From NCBI GenBank assembly GCA_030428945.1, contig JAUIEC010000003.1, forward strand, positions 62,001 to 126,000: a stretch of 64,000 bases of DNA. The letters run 5' to 3'. Shown here one piece after another: positions 9,420 to 57,710 of the stretch. The translations under genes were made by a program, and so were the position numbers. Position 1 is the first letter of the stretch. Each line of letters begins with the position of its first letter. This stretch comes from Phycisphaerae bacterium. GTDB lineage: Bacteria; Planctomycetota; Phycisphaerae; UBA1845; Fen-1342. The notes below the pieces were generated by a model. The model ran no database searches and was not told where the DNA came from. It saw only the letters and a list, made by a program, of their open reading frames with translations.

Positions 9420-9983
9420 ATGTCCTCGTCACCCGCACAGCAGCCGCAGCCGCCGCAGCCGACCGCCCTCGACGCGATCCCGCTGACCGTCCGCGGAATC
9501 GTCTACGCGATCGCGTTCCTCGCCATGATCCTGATCGTCGTGCCCTACGGCGCCAGCCGCTTCGAGGTCTACTTCCCGCAGTGGCACTTCGTCCAACTGC
9601 CGGTCGCCGTCCAGTACATCGGCTGGGCCCTCTTCGCGATCACGCTCGCGATCTACCTGACCGCCTCGTTCCACCTGATGTCCCGTGGCCGCGGGGCGTA
9701 CGTCGAATTCGACCCGCCGAAGGAGTTCGTCGCGACCGGCATGTTCCGCTGGTGCCGCAACCCGATCGCGTTGTGCGTCGTCCTGATGCTGCTGTTCCTC
9801 GCGATCGCCAAGTCGTCGACCGGCGTGCTGCTGCTGTTCCTGGTCGCCGCGCCGCTGGCCCACGCACAGGTGGTCCTGCTCGAGGAACCGCTGCTGCGGC
9901 AGCGCTTCGGCCAGCCCTACGAGGACTTCCTGAACACGGTCCCGCGCTGGATCCCGCGACCGCCGCGTGCGGACGCTCCGTGA
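9420..9983 (+). CDS. isoprenylcysteine/phospholipid methyltransferase-like membrane protein
   Basis: The 187-aa integral membrane protein has four to five hydrophobic helices. Its C-terminal half has the ICMT/PEMT signature: GMFRWCRNPIALCVVLM (the RNP-type cofactor region) and EEPLLRQRFGQPYEDFLNTV followed by PRWIPR, the conserved end of these enzymes. The family uses S-adenosylmethionine to methylate lipids or prenylated groups at the membrane. It starts 5 nt after the ketosynthase-like stop and overlaps the next gene by GTGA, so the three genes form an operon. That argues for methylation of the product or intermediate handled by its neighbours. The methyl acceptor is unknown. Confidence 0.82.
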   Translation: MSSSPAQQPQPPQPTALDAIPLTVRGIVYAIAFLAMILIVVPYGASRFEVYFPQWHFVQLPVAVQYIGWALFAITLAIYLTASFHLMSRGRGAYVEFDPPKEFVATGMFRWCRNPIALCVVLMLLFLAIAKSSTGVLLLFLVAAPLAHAQVVLLEEPLLRQRFGQPYEDFLNTVPRWIPRPPRADAP

Positions 9984-11002
9984 CGGCCGTCATCACCGGC
10001 GCCACCGGCTTCCTCGGCGGGGCACTTGCCCGCGAACTTCTCGAACAAGGCACGCCTGTCCGCGTCCTCGCCCGCCGGCCGGAAGCGGCCGAACCCCTGA
10101 AACAGCTTGGAGCCGAGGTCCACGCCGGCAACCTCGAAGACGCCGCCAGCCTGTGCGGCCTGATCGAAGCCGGAGATGTCGTCTACCACTGCGCCGCGCG
10201 GGTCGACCTGTCGGGCCCGCTCCGCGACTTCGAGCGGACCAACGTCGAGGGAACCCAGAACCTGCTCGACGCCTGCCGCGACAACCAACCCGGTCGCTTC
10301 GTTTTCGTCAGCTCCGGCGCCGTCTACGGCGCGGCCGCGTTGAACGAGCGCGTTTCTGCCGACCGCATTCCGGCCGAGCCACTGGCGTACAACTTCTACG
10401 GGCGAACCAAGCGGGCGGCCGAGCAGCGCGTCGAGGCGGCGGCGGCGCGGGACGGCTTCGATTACGTCATTCTCCGCCTTGGGTTCCTGTACGGCGTCGG
10501 GAATCGTCCGCTGCTGGACCACGTCGAACCGCTGATGCGCAAAGGCCGTTACGTGCTGATGGGCAAGGGGAAGAATCGGATCGCGACACTCGACATCGCC
10601 GACGCTGTCGCGGCCACGATTGCCGTCGGCACCCACCCGGCCGCGGCCGGCCGGACCTACGACGGCGCCAGCAGCGAAGCGGTCACGCAGCGCGAGTTCT
10701 TCGCGGCCACGGCCGAGGCGCTGGGCTGTTCGACTCGGTTCCGCGACATCCGCCTGTCGCTGGCCCGCCCGCTGGCCCGCGTGGCGGAGTGGACCTGCGG
10801 CCTGCTTGGCCGCCCGGCCCCGCTGACGCGGGCGATGGTGGACCTGCTCGGCGCCGACCAGCAGATCGACAGCAGCGCGATGCGGGATGAACTCGGCTGG
10901 GAGCCGAAAGTCAGCTTCGCGGAAGGGATGCAGCGGATGCGCGAGTGGTACGCTGGGGAGGGAGCGAGGGAACGAGGGAGCCAGGGAGCGAGGAGAGAGT
11001 GA
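9980..11002 (+). CDS. extended SDR / NAD-dependent epimerase-dehydratase (3-beta-HSD/OleD-like)
   Basis: The 340-aa protein uses a GTG start overlapping the upstream stop (GTGA). It opens with the Rossmann motif TGATGFLGG (7-14), has the catalytic serine region VSSGAVYG (110-117) and the Y140-x3-K144 pair. The C-terminal half resembles the 3-beta-hydroxysteroid dehydrogenase branch that includes OleD and sterol dehydrogenases. It would oxidise or reduce a hydroxyl/keto group, or epimerise a sugar; the lipid context favours the first. The last 15 or so residues (EGARERGSQGARRE) are encoded by an 8-bp GAGGGAGC repeat array, so the original C-terminus may have been extended by the repeat. Confidence 0.85.
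   Translation: MTAVITGATGFLGGALARELLEQGTPVRVLARRPEAAEPLKQLGAEVHAGNLEDAASLCGLIEAGDVVYHCAARVDLSGPLRDFERTNVEGTQNLLDACRDNQPGRFVFVSSGAVYGAAALNERVSADRIPAEPLAYNFYGRTKRAAEQRVEAAAARDGFDYVILRLGFLYGVGNRPLLDHVEPLMRKGRYVLMGKGKNRIATLDIADAVAATIAVGTHPAAAGRTYDGASSEAVTQREFFAATAEALGCSTRFRDIRLSLARPLARVAEWTCGLLGRPAPLTRAMVDLLGADQQIDSSAMRDELGWEPKVSFAEGMQRMREWYAGEGARERGSQGARRE
10958..10997. repeat. GAGGGAGC-family 8-bp array, left arm of a 34-bp perfect inverted repeat
   Basis: Octamers GAGGGAGC, GAGGGAAC, GAGGGAGC, CAGGGAGC follow one another inside the last codons of the SDR gene. Positions 10959-10992 are an exact reverse complement of 11133-11166. The two arms bracket a 140-bp spacer that itself contains a small dyad. 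Confidence 0.92.
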
Positions 11003-11010
11003 GCGAACCG

Positions 11011-11042
11011 TGCCACTGCGCAAGAGCTCAAGAGCAGTGGCA
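11011..11042. repeat. GCAGTGGCA dyad (9-bp stem)
   Basis: TGCCACTGC (11011-11019) and GCAGTGGCA (11034-11042) form a perfect 9-bp stem with a 14-nt loop containing GAGCTC. The GAGCAGTGGCA core recurs at 25153-25164 and, as its reverse complement, at 32046-32055. It sits inside the spacer of the 34-bp inverted repeat. Confidence 0.75.
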
Positions 11043-11132
11043 AAACCGCCGGCCTGGAAAAGGTGGGGGACCCATGCCCGGTATCCGGCTCTCGGTTCCC
11101 AGTCCCCCCGCCGGTTCCCGGTTTCGGTCTTT

Positions 11133-11166
11133 CTCGCTCCCTGGCTCCCTCGTTCCCTCGCTCCCT
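11133..11166. repeat. GAGGGAGC-family array, right arm of the 34-bp inverted repeat
   Basis: This is the exact reverse complement of 10959-10992, made of GCTCCCTC-type octamers. It ends 64 bp before the ATG of the alkaline-phosphatase-superfamily gene, so it lies in that gene's leader or promoter region. Confidence 0.92.
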
Positions 11167-11230
11167 TCCCCTTGACTCTCCCCCCGCGCCGCGCGAGCAT
11201 CCACACGGGTAAACCACCGCGAAAGGCACC

Positions 11231-12820
11231 ATGGCCAGGCATCCCAACATTCTGCTGATCGTCGTCGACTGCGCACGGGCCGACAAATGGCTCGGGCCCG
11301 ACCGCTCCGTCCATACGCCGAACCTCGATCGCCTCGCGGCCGGGGGGACGGCGTTCAATACCGCCATTACCGAAAAAAGCTGCACGACGCCCAGCTTCTC
11401 GACCCTGCTGACCGGGCAGTACAGCCCGCTGCACGGGGTGCACCTGGTCTGGGGCTACCGCCTGCCGCAGAGCGTGCCGATGCTGACCGAGCCGTTCAAG
11501 GCGGCCGGCTATCACACCTACGCCGAGGTCAGCGGGCCGCTGCTGCCCGAGATGGGCCTCGCCCGCGGCTTCGACGAGTACCACTACCGGGCCCCGTGCG
11601 ACCACCTGCACACGGCCTGGGGCGACCAGTTCCTCGAGAAGATCCGCGGCGGCTACAAGGGCCCCTGGCTGACCATGCTGCACATCTGGGAACTGCACCC
11701 GCACCGCTACGTCGATGACCACTACAACAGCGACCAGTACGGCCGCGACGAGTACGAACGCGCCATCAGCAGCCTCGACGTGCAGCTTGGCCGGATCTTC
11801 GACGCGGTCGACGACAACACGATCATCGCCTTTACCGGCGACCACGGCGAGAAGACGCACTTCGAACAGTACCAGCCCGGAACGGCCGTCGAGTACGCCC
11901 GCGAACTGCTCGGCATCGACGACGCGACCGGCATGGCACCCTACGCGGTGGCCGGCTGGGCCGGGCCGAGCGTGCTTCAGGAGATGTACGGCAAGTGCAC
12001 GCCGCTGATGCGCGACGTGCGGTTGCGCGACCGCAAGCCGCCGACCAAGCCGTCAATCTGGCGGCGGATGCGCGACCGCTGGAACGTGCTGCGCCTGACG
12101 CCGATGGTCTACTTCCACGACCTGCTCGCACTCGGGGCGCCGCTCAAGCTGACGAAGATGCTCGAACGCCGCGGCCTGCTCGACCCGAACCGCTCGAAGA
12201 AGAAGGTCGAGAAGATGGTCGATCGCATCGGCACCGACGAACTGCTCGACATGCACATGCGGATGTGGATCAACTCGTACCGGCACAACTACGACGAGGG
12301 ACACATGGTGCACGTGTATGATTTCCTCGTGCGGGTGCCCTTCGTCCTCCACGGACCAGGCGTCCCGCCCGGGGTGCTGCACGAGCGGATGGTCCGCCAG
12401 CCGGACTTCATGCCGACCCTGATGGACCTCGCCGGCGTGCCGAACGACAAGGCCGGCCAGATCGCCGGACGCAGCTTCCGCCCGCTGCTCGACGGCCAGC
12501 CCTGGGAACCTCGCCCGGCGTTCGTCTCCGTCTCGGGCTGCCCGGCCGACCTCGAAATCCGCGGCGTCCGCACCGAAACACACAAATTCACCTACGGACC
12601 CGAGAACGACCAGTTGCCGGCCGAACTCTACGACCTGCGGGCCGACCCCGGCGAGCGGAACAACATCATCGCCGGACACCCCGAACGCGCCGCCGAACTG
12701 AAGGCCCTGGCCGACTCGTTCGTTCCCGCCGACGGCGCCGCCGCGATCGACGCGATGGAACTCAGCGAAGGCGAACGCTCGCAGGTCGAGAAGCAACTCG
12801 AAGAACTGGGATACCTGTAG
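11231..12820 (+). CDS. alkaline phosphatase/sulfatase superfamily hydrolase with Thr in place of formylglycine Cys
   Basis: The 529-aa cytoplasm-start protein has the superfamily frame: metal-binding IVVDCARAD (11-18), a nucleophile loop SCTTPSFSTLLTG (50-62), TGDHGE for the second metal site, and sulfatase-type C-terminal segments (RVPFVLHGPG, DLAGV, ELYDLRADPGE). In true sulfatases the loop is C/S-x-P-x-R with Cys or Ser matured to formylglycine. Here the nucleophile position is T52 and the Arg is F56, so formylglycine maturation is not expected. A phosphodiesterase, phosphatase or phospho-head-group transferase role is more likely than sulfate ester hydrolysis. No signal peptide is evident. 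It follows the lipid-type operon after a repeat-filled spacer. Confidence 0.82.
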   Translation: MARHPNILLIVVDCARADKWLGPDRSVHTPNLDRLAAGGTAFNTAITEKSCTTPSFSTLLTGQYSPLHGVHLVWGYRLPQSVPMLTEPFKAAGYHTYAEVSGPLLPEMGLARGFDEYHYRAPCDHLHTAWGDQFLEKIRGGYKGPWLTMLHIWELHPHRYVDDHYNSDQYGRDEYERAISSLDVQLGRIFDAVDDNTIIAFTGDHGEKTHFEQYQPGTAVEYARELLGIDDATGMAPYAVAGWAGPSVLQEMYGKCTPLMRDVRLRDRKPPTKPSIWRRMRDRWNVLRLTPMVYFHDLLALGAPLKLTKMLERRGLLDPNRSKKKVEKMVDRIGTDELLDMHMRMWINSYRHNYDEGHMVHVYDFLVRVPFVLHGPGVPPGVLHERMVRQPDFMPTLMDLAGVPNDKAGQIAGRSFRPLLDGQPWEPRPAFVSVSGCPADLEIRGVRTETHKFTYGPENDQLPAELYDLRADPGERNNIIAGHPERAAELKALADSFVPADGAAAIDAMELSEGERSQVEKQLEELGYL

Positions 12821-12840: not shown

Positions 12841-12928
12841 GTGACAGAGTGAAGGAGTGATGGAGTGAAAGAGGAAGTAGCGCTGCATAGCCAACCTCTT
12901 TCGCACCTTCACGTTTTCACTCTTTCGC
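12841..12928. repeat. GTGAAAGG-family octamer arrays as a 34-nt-arm inverted repeat
   Basis: The left arm 12841-12874 (GAGTGAAG, GAGTGATG, GAGTGAAA units) and the right arm 12895-12928 (units such as CTTTCGCA, CCTTCACG) are imperfect inverted copies, 26 of 34 positions matching by eye, with a 20-nt loop. The element fills the spacer between the phosphatase-like gene and the membrane glycosyltransferase and could fold in RNA from either strand. Confidence 0.75.
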
Positions 12929-12950
12929 ATCGCCCCGGACTCCGCCCGTG

Positions 12951-23524: not shown

Positions 23525-25051
23525 GTGCTGGAAGCCGCGGCGCTCGCCATCTTTGCCGCTCTGATGATCGGTCCGGCCCTCTACGGGCTGCACATGTACC
23601 TGCTGATGTTCCTGGCCGGCCGCCGACGTCGCCACGTCCGGGCCATGCAGCGCGCCGTGCGGGCCGACTACCGCCCCCGGGTGTGGCCGCGGGTCACGAC
23701 GCAGATCCCGATCTACAACGAGTCGGCCGTGGCCGAACGGGTCATCCGGGCCGTCGCCGGGCTCGATTACCCGCGTGATCGACACGAGATCCAGGTCCTG
23801 GACGACAGCACGGACGGCACCCGTGCCCTGGTCGACCAGGTCTGCGACCGCCTGCGGGGCGAGGGGCACGAGATCGTCGTGCTGCGGCGCGAGGTCCGCA
23901 CCGACTTCAAGGCCGGCGCGCTGGCGGCGGGACTGCGGCGGGCGACGGGAGACCTGATCGCGATTTTCGACGCCGATTTCGTCCCGGGCCCGGGCTTCCT
24001 GAAGGAACTGGTGCCGCTGCTGGAATCCGATGCGCGCGTCGCGTGTGTGCAGGGCCGCTGGGGGCACCTGAATCAGAACGAGTCGTGGATGACCGAGGCG
24101 CTCTCGCTCGGAATGGACGGGCACTTCGGCGTCGAACAGCCCGCCCGCGCCTGGAACGGGTTCCTGCTGAACTTCAACGGCACCGGCGGAATCTGGCGAC
24201 GCGCCGCCATCGAAGATCCGGCCGTCGGCGGCTGGCAGGGCGATACGCTGACCGAGGACCTCGACCTGTCCTACCGGGCGCAACTGGCCGGCTGGACCAT
24301 CCGCTACTGCCAGGATGTCGAAGCCCCGGCCGAGGTCCCGGCGGACGTCGCCGCGTTGAAGTCGCAGCAACGCCGCTGGGCGACCGGTTCGATGCAGTCG
24401 GCCCGCAAGCTGCTGCCCCTCGTCTGGAAGTCGAAGCTCTCGCTGGCGACCAGGGTGGAGGCCAGCATTCACCTGACGCAGTACCTGGTCAACGTCTTCA
24501 TGGTCATGATGGCGCTGTTCGGTCGCTCGTTGTTCTGGTTCATTCCGGTCGAACGCTACGCGGACTGGCTGGCGGTAAGCTGGATCGTGATTCTGCTCGC
24601 GGCGGCCGCGCCGTCGGTGGCGTACATGTTCGGTCGCTGGTCGTTGCAGGGTCAGATTCCCGGGCCGGGGCGAATCCTGCAGTTGATCGCGCTGGGCTTC
24701 GGGCTGTCGCTGAACAACACGGTGGCCTGTGCGGTCGGGCTGTTTTCGCGAGGAGGCGAGTTCGTTCGGACCCCCAAGACCGGCTCGACCGGCACCCGGG
24801 CCGGGCAGCGCCGCTATGCGGTCCCGGGCGGGCTGCTGTGGCTGGCCGAGATTCTGCTCGGACTGTTCTGCCTGGCGCAGTGGGCCTGGTTCCTGGAGGC
24901 CGACCGGTACGTCGGCGGCACGTTCCTGCTGCTGTTCGCAGCCGGCCTGCTGACCATCGGCTGGCAGTCGCGTCCGCATGGCGCGACCGAATCCAGCGAC
25001 CCGCTTCCGGCAGAGGGCAAACTCGCAGCGGCGGGTGAGGTTGGTAAGTGA
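23525..25051 (+). CDS. processive family 2 glycosyltransferase (cellulose synthase-like)
   Basis: From GTG 23525 the protein is 508 aa; the frame is open further upstream, but the first membrane helix (LEAAALAIFAALMIGPALYGLHMYL, in two runs) begins here and GGAG lies 13 bp upstream. The catalytic domain has IPIYNES, DDSTDGT, DADF (DxD), TEDLDLSYR and QQRRWATG, the D,D,D,QxxRW set of processive beta-glycosyltransferases. Several C-terminal membrane helices follow. It should polymerise or extend a glycan from a nucleotide sugar while moving it across the membrane; no PilZ domain is visible. The stop codon lies inside an AAGTGAGC octamer array. Confidence 0.88.
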   Translation: MLEAAALAIFAALMIGPALYGLHMYLLMFLAGRRRRHVRAMQRAVRADYRPRVWPRVTTQIPIYNESAVAERVIRAVAGLDYPRDRHEIQVLDDSTDGTRALVDQVCDRLRGEGHEIVVLRREVRTDFKAGALAAGLRRATGDLIAIFDADFVPGPGFLKELVPLLESDARVACVQGRWGHLNQNESWMTEALSLGMDGHFGVEQPARAWNGFLLNFNGTGGIWRRAAIEDPAVGGWQGDTLTEDLDLSYRAQLAGWTIRYCQDVEAPAEVPADVAALKSQQRRWATGSMQSARKLLPLVWKSKLSLATRVEASIHLTQYLVNVFMVMMALFGRSLFWFIPVERYADWLAVSWIVILLAAAAPSVAYMFGRWSLQGQIPGPGRILQLIALGFGLSLNNTVACAVGLFSRGGEFVRTPKTGSTGTRAGQRRYAVPGGLLWLAEILLGLFCLAQWAWFLEADRYVGGTFLLLFAAGLLTIGWQSRPHGATESSDPLPAEGKLAAAGEVGK

Positions 25052-25225
25052 GCAAGTAAGCAGTCAGCAGGTAAGCAAGTAAGCCGGCAGGCAGGTCCGT
25101 CGCGGGATTGCGGGATGGTACGGCGGGTTCCGGCGCGGGAAGACCCTGCTCAAGAGCAGTGGCACGTTCGCACGCACAGGCGCGTGGCTTGTGGCACACT
25201 TCCCTGTTCCCTGTTCCCTGTTCCC
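25046..25225. repeat. composite repeat module: AAGTGAGC octamers, GAGCAGTGGCAC element, TTCCCTG heptamers
   Basis: Octamers AAGTGAGC, AAGTAAGC, (AGTCAGC), AGGTAAGC, AAGTAAGC occupy 25046-25084, beginning within the stop codon of the GT2 gene. CTGCTCAAGAGCAGTGGCAC follows at 25146-25165. TTCCCTG is repeated 3.7 times at 25200-25225, right before the next gene. The same octamer-then-heptamer order appears at 57552-57659. Confidence 0.88.
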
Positions 25226-25240
25226 TTCTGAAGAACCCCA

Positions 25241-57502: not shown

Positions 57503-57659
57503 GTGAAAAGGTGAAGGGGTGAAAGGGTGAATGAGGGTGAGCCCTGATCCTGAGTGAGCAAGTGAGCAGGTAAGCAGGCAGCGGGTTTGGCCGGGCGTGA
57601 CCGGCACCGCGTATCGGAACGCGGGCTACACTTCCCTGTTCCCTGTTCCCTGTTCCCTG
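57503..57659. repeat. composite repeat module: GTGAAAGG, AAGTGAGC and TTCCCTG arrays
   Basis: GTGAAAAG, GTGAAGGG, GTGAAAGG, GTGAATGA (57503-57534) start right after the ACP stop. GAGTGAGC, AAGTGAGC, AGGTAAGC (57552-57575) follow. Four exact TTCCCTG heptamers occupy 57632-57659 after CAC. The last two parts have the same order as the module at 25046-25225. Confidence 0.9.
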
Positions 57660-57710
57660 TTAATTGGCAGGAACTTGCGACGCGGCCCGGTAGCGGCTTG
57701 CCACGCTGCG

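Follow-up and report, generated by a model that had tools for sequence, protein, structure and literature searches.

Inverted octamer arrays between the epimerase and sulfatase genes

The locus analyzed is found at about 11 kb in the window, which is the whole 64,000-nucleotide stretch of Phycisphaerae DNA under study, and it covers the end of an epimerase gene, the beginning of a sulfatase gene and the repeats between them:

9980..11002, plus strand: NAD-dependent epimerase/SDR gene (PF01370), the last ~15 codons and TGA of which are array-derived
10955..11006, plus strand: left arm, a purine-strand octamer array with the units GAGGGAGC, GAGGGAAC, GAGGGAGC, CAGGGAGC, followed by the decayed GAGGAGAGAGTGAGC
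11010..11042, plus strand: REP-like dyad GTGCCACTG-CGCAAGAGCTCAAGAG-CAGTGGCAA, one of 27 related dyads in the 1.98 Mb of host genome mapped
11133..11170, minus strand: right arm, the GAGGGAGC octamer family in the opposite orientation, its purine strand being the minus strand
11231..12820, plus strand: sulfatase gene (PF00884, SGSH_C), 3' of the right arm

Over 34 bp, the segment 10959-10992 matches the reverse complement of 11133-11166 exactly. When extended to 10955-10992 and 11133-11170, the arms measure 38 nt, with 97% identity and 140 nt in between, and every other inverted repeat in the window is shorter. Both were assigned a period of 8 by Tandem Repeats Finder (unit GAGGGAGC at 10958-11006 and unit CTCGCTCC at 11133-11166), and each carries four GGG tracts. 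The left arm is in frame with the epimerase/SDR gene, the product of which ends ...WYAGEGARERGSQGARRE*, and the TGA at 11000-11002 falls inside the decayed end of the array. The right arm terminates approximately 60 nt upstream of the sulfatase ATG (11231). A 9-bp dyad, TGCCACTGC at 11011-11019 and GCAGTGGCA at 11034-11042, lies between the arms. The exact pair, its octameric build, the translation of the left arm as the last residues of the SDR gene, the position of the right arm in the leader of the next gene and the presence of the dyad had all been described in an earlier note on this DNA, and each of these observations was reproduced.

A very stable stem enclosing 140 nt had also been expected in the RNA. 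Such a stem is possible according to the predicted fold of the arm region, a long hairpin of -153 kcal/mol (z = -10) in which the 9-bp dyad is base-paired as well. No terminator-like site was identified in 10800-11300, and there is no T run behind the arm hairpin. The Rfam matches at the arm stem, plant miRNA hairpins and one UTR model, were far below the cut-offs and were rejected as matches of shape only. The REP-like dyads share the consensus GTGCCACTGCTCTTGAGCTCTTGAGCAGTGTCTTCT, and in the loci read their GTGCCAC end is mostly directed towards an octamer array.

The C-terminus of the epimerase/SDR protein was aligned with homologues from 29 loci, as had been proposed earlier. These homologues have unrelated ends which extend from a few to ~30 residues past a conserved W(Y/W/H), and the tail GARERGSQGARRE was absent from all 29. 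Judged from this alignment the tail is repeat-derived, and the alternative of a native tail conserved among homologues was not borne out. Among the GAGGGAGC arrays located behind a sense gene only 4/97 begin more than 10 nt inside the gene, most beginning 1-10 nt past the stop codon. In the case described here an array has run on into the 3' end of the epimerase coding sequence and replaced the native C-terminus, and it now provides the stop codon.

A dispersed purine-array family and its polarity

Searching the host assembly (5.5 Mb) with a 103-nt query returned 74 matches. The 16-mer GAGGGAGCNAGGGAGC was found 656 times in the host genome and in 0 to 2 copies for each of 26 additional species searched within the family, while a scan of named genomes revealed the four-fold octamer at low copy in MAGs of Verrucomicrobiales, Bacteroidales, Acidobacteriaceae and others. 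The commonest units of the family are GAGGGAGC, AAGGGAGC and CAGGGAGC, GAGGGAAC accounts for 2% of units, and the modal number of units in the GAGGGAGC family is four. Measured against base composition the arm pair is far beyond chance; measured against the host's own repeat family it is ordinary.

Based on a map of 1.98 Mb of the host genome (~36%), in which 1325 genes were called by a home-made hexamer model, four array families were recognized, namely GAGGGAGC (166 arrays), AAGTAAGC (70), GAGTGAAN (57) and CAGGGAA (70). All but three of the GAGGGAGC arrays (163/166) lie outside gene interiors. It was the purine strand's 5' end that lay nearer to a gene in 141/163 GAGGGAGC, 63/70 AAGTAAGC, 44/57 GAGTGAAN and 60/70 CAGGGAA arrays. 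The median distance to the sense stop codon is 3-10 nt, depending on the family, and AAGTAAGC and GAGTGAAN arrays frequently provide the stop codon themselves. Close to start codons, arrays run antisense at a distance of ~60-80 nt. Where arrays on opposite strands share one intergenic region, the pair was purine-first in 108/109 cases and pyrimidine-first in one (four families together). Single GGGAG, GAGGG or GGGA motifs outside the arrays showed no such polarity.

Among intergenic regions of at least 60 nt, arrays were present in 93/168 convergent, 120/509 tandem and 16/205 divergent regions. Of 232 array-bearing regions, 147 contain arrays of one orientation only. The outer arms of a pair belong to the same family in 46/84 pairs, compared to 26 expected, and are mixed in the remaining 38/84. 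Since arrays keep this polarity, arms placed at both edges of an intergenic region form a convergent inverted pair.

Further pairs were observed in the window. Directly after the sulfatase gene (12847-12930), GAGTGAAG-type octamers are followed after a short loop by their reverse complement TTCACGTTTTCACTC, in the purine-first arrangement which the polarity rule predicts. Mixed pairs at 25046-25226 and 57503-57661 consist of AAGTAAGC or GTGAAAGG octamers 3' of a gene and TTCCCTG heptamers (the reverse of CAGGGAA) ahead of the next one. With respect to array ends, 29/57 GAGTGAAN arrays finish in GAGG instead of GAGT, and in three families the purine strand of an array often has RAGG as its last letters, so that the loop between two arms is flanked by RAGG...CCTY.

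A sequence-blind detector, which requires a period of 7-9 and at least 72% purines and is given no unit sequence, recovered 321 non-coding arrays in the host, of which 274 had the 5' end nearer to the gene (p = 4e-40); the pairs were purine-first in 87 cases and reversed in none. In 400 kb from a relative of another genus the units were GAGTAGC, CACGGAGA and GAGGGATA, and the rule was kept by all of the non-coding arrays (12/12). Verrucomicrobiales MAGs were considered as an independent replicate and rejected, because only 1/9 of their GAGGGAGC arrays kept the rule and these arrays look unrelated in behaviour; the polarity rule is thus not universal. Within the lineage of the host, the evidence leaves evenly poised the wider proposal that polarity is independent of the unit sequence, i.e. 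that the purine strand of purine-rich arrays with a period of 7-8 bp points away from the abutting gene as the outcome of a common directional process or of a general one-way gene-boundary signal, rather than of a property of one repeat such as G-quadruplex (G4) folding.

Origin and possible function of the arrays

Several origins can be weighed for pairs of this kind. The arms might be the terminal inverted repeats of a MITE-like mobile element which inserts beside stop codons, and the strict purine-first polarity, the agreement of outer-arm families above chance and the RAGG...CCTY borders of many loops are all in keeping with this. The loops, however, range from 7 to more than 600 nt, and no conserved interior was found between the arms, both the lengths and the sequences of the loops being different. 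Because the loops are variable and single arms are many, and with nearly half of the outer pairs of mixed family, a MITE is considered unlikely.

The only RAYT found in the genome (L031:1180-2010, NF047646, above cut-off) was examined as a mover of the octamer arrays and rejected, since it is a single copy flanked by a different repeat, GGGTGCCC...GGGTGGGGGACTG; the octamer array nearby is of the AAGTAAGC type. On both sides the RAYT is flanked, in inverted orientation, by a GGGTGCCCC..GAGCGCAGCG..AAGGGTGGGGGACTG repeat, which is probably its own REP. The arms themselves are direct octamer arrays in which neither a REP palindrome of 20-40 bp nor a GTAG/CGTC tag was found. Further intergenic repeats, GGGTGCGTCATCGACGC..GGCGTCGATGCCGCACCGCGTGGCA and GTGGCACAGGCGTCCCGCCTGTG, were noted (e.g. 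in L014, L018 and L019), and the intergenic regions of the host are mosaics of these repeats and octamer arrays.

A directional process acting on DNA ends could also be envisaged, in which breaks are trimmed to gene edges, purine-rich octamers are added to both 3' ends and the two ends are fused, much as telomeres fuse head to head, so that convergent arrays are produced at once. Such end healing would account for the polarity at any gene orientation, the few divergent pairs included, as well as for the anchoring at gene edges and the match of families within a locus. A homologue of Ku, the bacterial end-joining protein, is encoded in the host genome, but Ku is common to many bacteria. The assembly's only RVT_1 protein, at L200:712-2349, is a retron type XIII-like reverse transcriptase and not the tandem-repeat-making DRT10, and no array lies beside it. 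To our knowledge there is no enzyme or template here for the addition of octamers, and we regard this origin as quite improbable.

It is also very doubtful that a G4 in the purine strand is selected and determines where arrays are placed, an idea raised for GGGNATC heptamers. The modal four units of the GAGGGAGC family yield the four G3 tracts needed, and CAGGGAA arrays do likewise, but the AAGTAAGC and GAGTGAAN arrays, which contain no G3 tracts, keep the rule, as do the GAGTAGC arrays of the relative. Because two families devoid of G tracts obey the rule, G4 folding is not the cause of the polarity, although it may add to function in the GAGGGAGC and CAGGGAA families. The likelihoods given to these readings overlap, as end healing and G4 bear on origin or function and not on the reading of the arms as copies.

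The least probable explanation, and one that we would give hardly any weight, is that of the earlier note, in which a recent inversion-duplication or gene conversion copied the second arm from the first: the match of 34 bp is perfect and the rare GAGGGAAC unit occupies the identical position in both arms, but among 7021 pairings of GAGGGAGC arrays that each reach 31 nt or more, 707 (10%) have an exact match of 31 nt or longer, the longest match between the two arms averages 16.48 nt in 31 inverted pairs from this family and 16.51 nt when arms are permuted (p = 0.51), no unique flank is inverted, the identity ends with the octamers, and the arm word is also present at unlinked loci. Two such loci carry the 35-mer of the left arm unchanged, and with one mismatch it occurs at ten places, i.e. 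the right arm of the window and nine others. The other families tested gave p = 0.66 to 0.95 in the same permutation of arms, and unit-by-unit homogenisation of arms was not seen. Inversion-duplication or gene conversion was therefore not seen as a general process. For the 11-kb locus alone, the shared GAGGGAAC unit is a weak hint which leaves a small opening for such an event. Members of the same family differ so little that no inversion event is needed for long perfect stems to form.

We accordingly consider, with good confidence, that the two arms belong independently of each other to a lineage-specific family of purine-rich octamer arrays which is dispersed through the genome under the polarity rule. 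This confidence applies to the observed part, i.e. independent membership and polarity, and does not extend to a boundary function. The striking feature of the locus is the one-way rule of the arrays and not a recent inversion at the SDR/sulfatase spot. Arrays of this kind account for the seemingly remarkable perfect inverted repeats of such genomes, and they rewrite protein C-termini and stop codons.

The arrays sit at gene edges, mostly at stop codons, with the purine 5' end towards the gene and the 3' end towards the intergenic region. As to function, they would be tolerated at the 3' ends of genes and have probably been co-opted there as transcription boundaries. Whatever the orientation of the gene, transcripts leaving it read the purine strand. 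Those entering it from the intergenic side either read the opposite strand, which is rich in C/U and poor in G, or run into a long stem, and would be likely to end there. We infer this boundary role only tentatively and, taken by itself, we give it somewhat less than even weight. The strand read into a gene has a C content of 0.31-0.56 and a G content of 0.05-0.16, a composition that would suit one-way termination. In folding energy per base, the array-paired regions were no better than array-free convergent regions. The T run that follows the G+C-rich stem of an intrinsic terminator was present in 0% of the 63 paired regions with a length of 80-400 nt. In the AAGTAAGC family YC dinucleotides are scarce, which makes a Rho site there doubtful.

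Comparison with known repeat systems

Telomerase-like synthesis of tandem-repeat DNA has been described for DRT10 (PMC12632851), which comprises a DRT10/UG17 reverse transcriptase, a SLATT partner and a template RNA. A reverse transcriptase of this type was rejected as the source of the arrays because the sole RVT_1 protein best matches retron reverse transcriptase type XIII, a judgement made on the reverse transcriptase alone in an assembly which is 94.7% complete.

REP/REPIN sequences with their RAYT transposase (PMC3116915, PMC3733652) are high-copy extragenic repeats near gene ends, and GTAG REPs also provide stop codons. The host arrays resemble them in being high-copy, extragenic and close to gene ends, in a genome with one RAYT, but differ in that the octamer arms are non-palindromic and carry no GTAG/CGTC tag and in that the RAYT is flanked by another repeat. 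The TAACTGA heptamer direct repeats of Beggiatoaceae (MacGregor 2015, PMC4679880) occur genome-wide, immediately ahead of start codons, and hardly ever form inverted pairs. Like them, the host arrays are genome-wide, short, tandem and close to ORF ends; unlike them, they have another sequence, lie mostly at stop codons and often form inverted pairs. As far as the part of the source consulted describes it, the AGGGGAGT octamer family of Mesorhizobium (PMC6749651) is a species-restricted prokaryotic satellite with purine-rich units, and to that extent the host family is similar, being likewise species-restricted, octameric and purine-rich.

The nearest precedent is the class of G4-forming heptamers, GGGNATC and GGGGA(C/T)T, reported from Xanthomonas and Nostoc by Rehm et al. 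2015 (PMC4692102), who left their function open. These heptamers have a mode of four units and are intergenic, with the G-strand nearer the 5' neighbouring ORF at any orientation, so that they are sense after stops and antisense before starts; convergent inverted pairs were found in 70 and 75 cases, and the heptamers are rare between divergent ORFs. The host arrays share the dispersed intergenic distribution, the four units with four G3 tracts as the mode of the GAGGGAGC family, the purine 5' end near the gene, the convergent pairs (108:1) and the rarity in divergent regions. They differ in that the unit GAGGGAGC is an octamer of period 8 and of different sequence, that four families in one genome, two of them devoid of G tracts, follow one rule, that the arrays often begin at or provide the stop codon, and that their arm pairs were tested for homogenisation, with none detected. 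The best reading is that the host arrays are a new variant of this class. The placement rule was noted in 2015 for a single G-rich heptamer class and given no explanation then; now that four units within a single genome, and further ones in a relative, are seen to keep it, G4 folding is removed as its cause and the question becomes testable.
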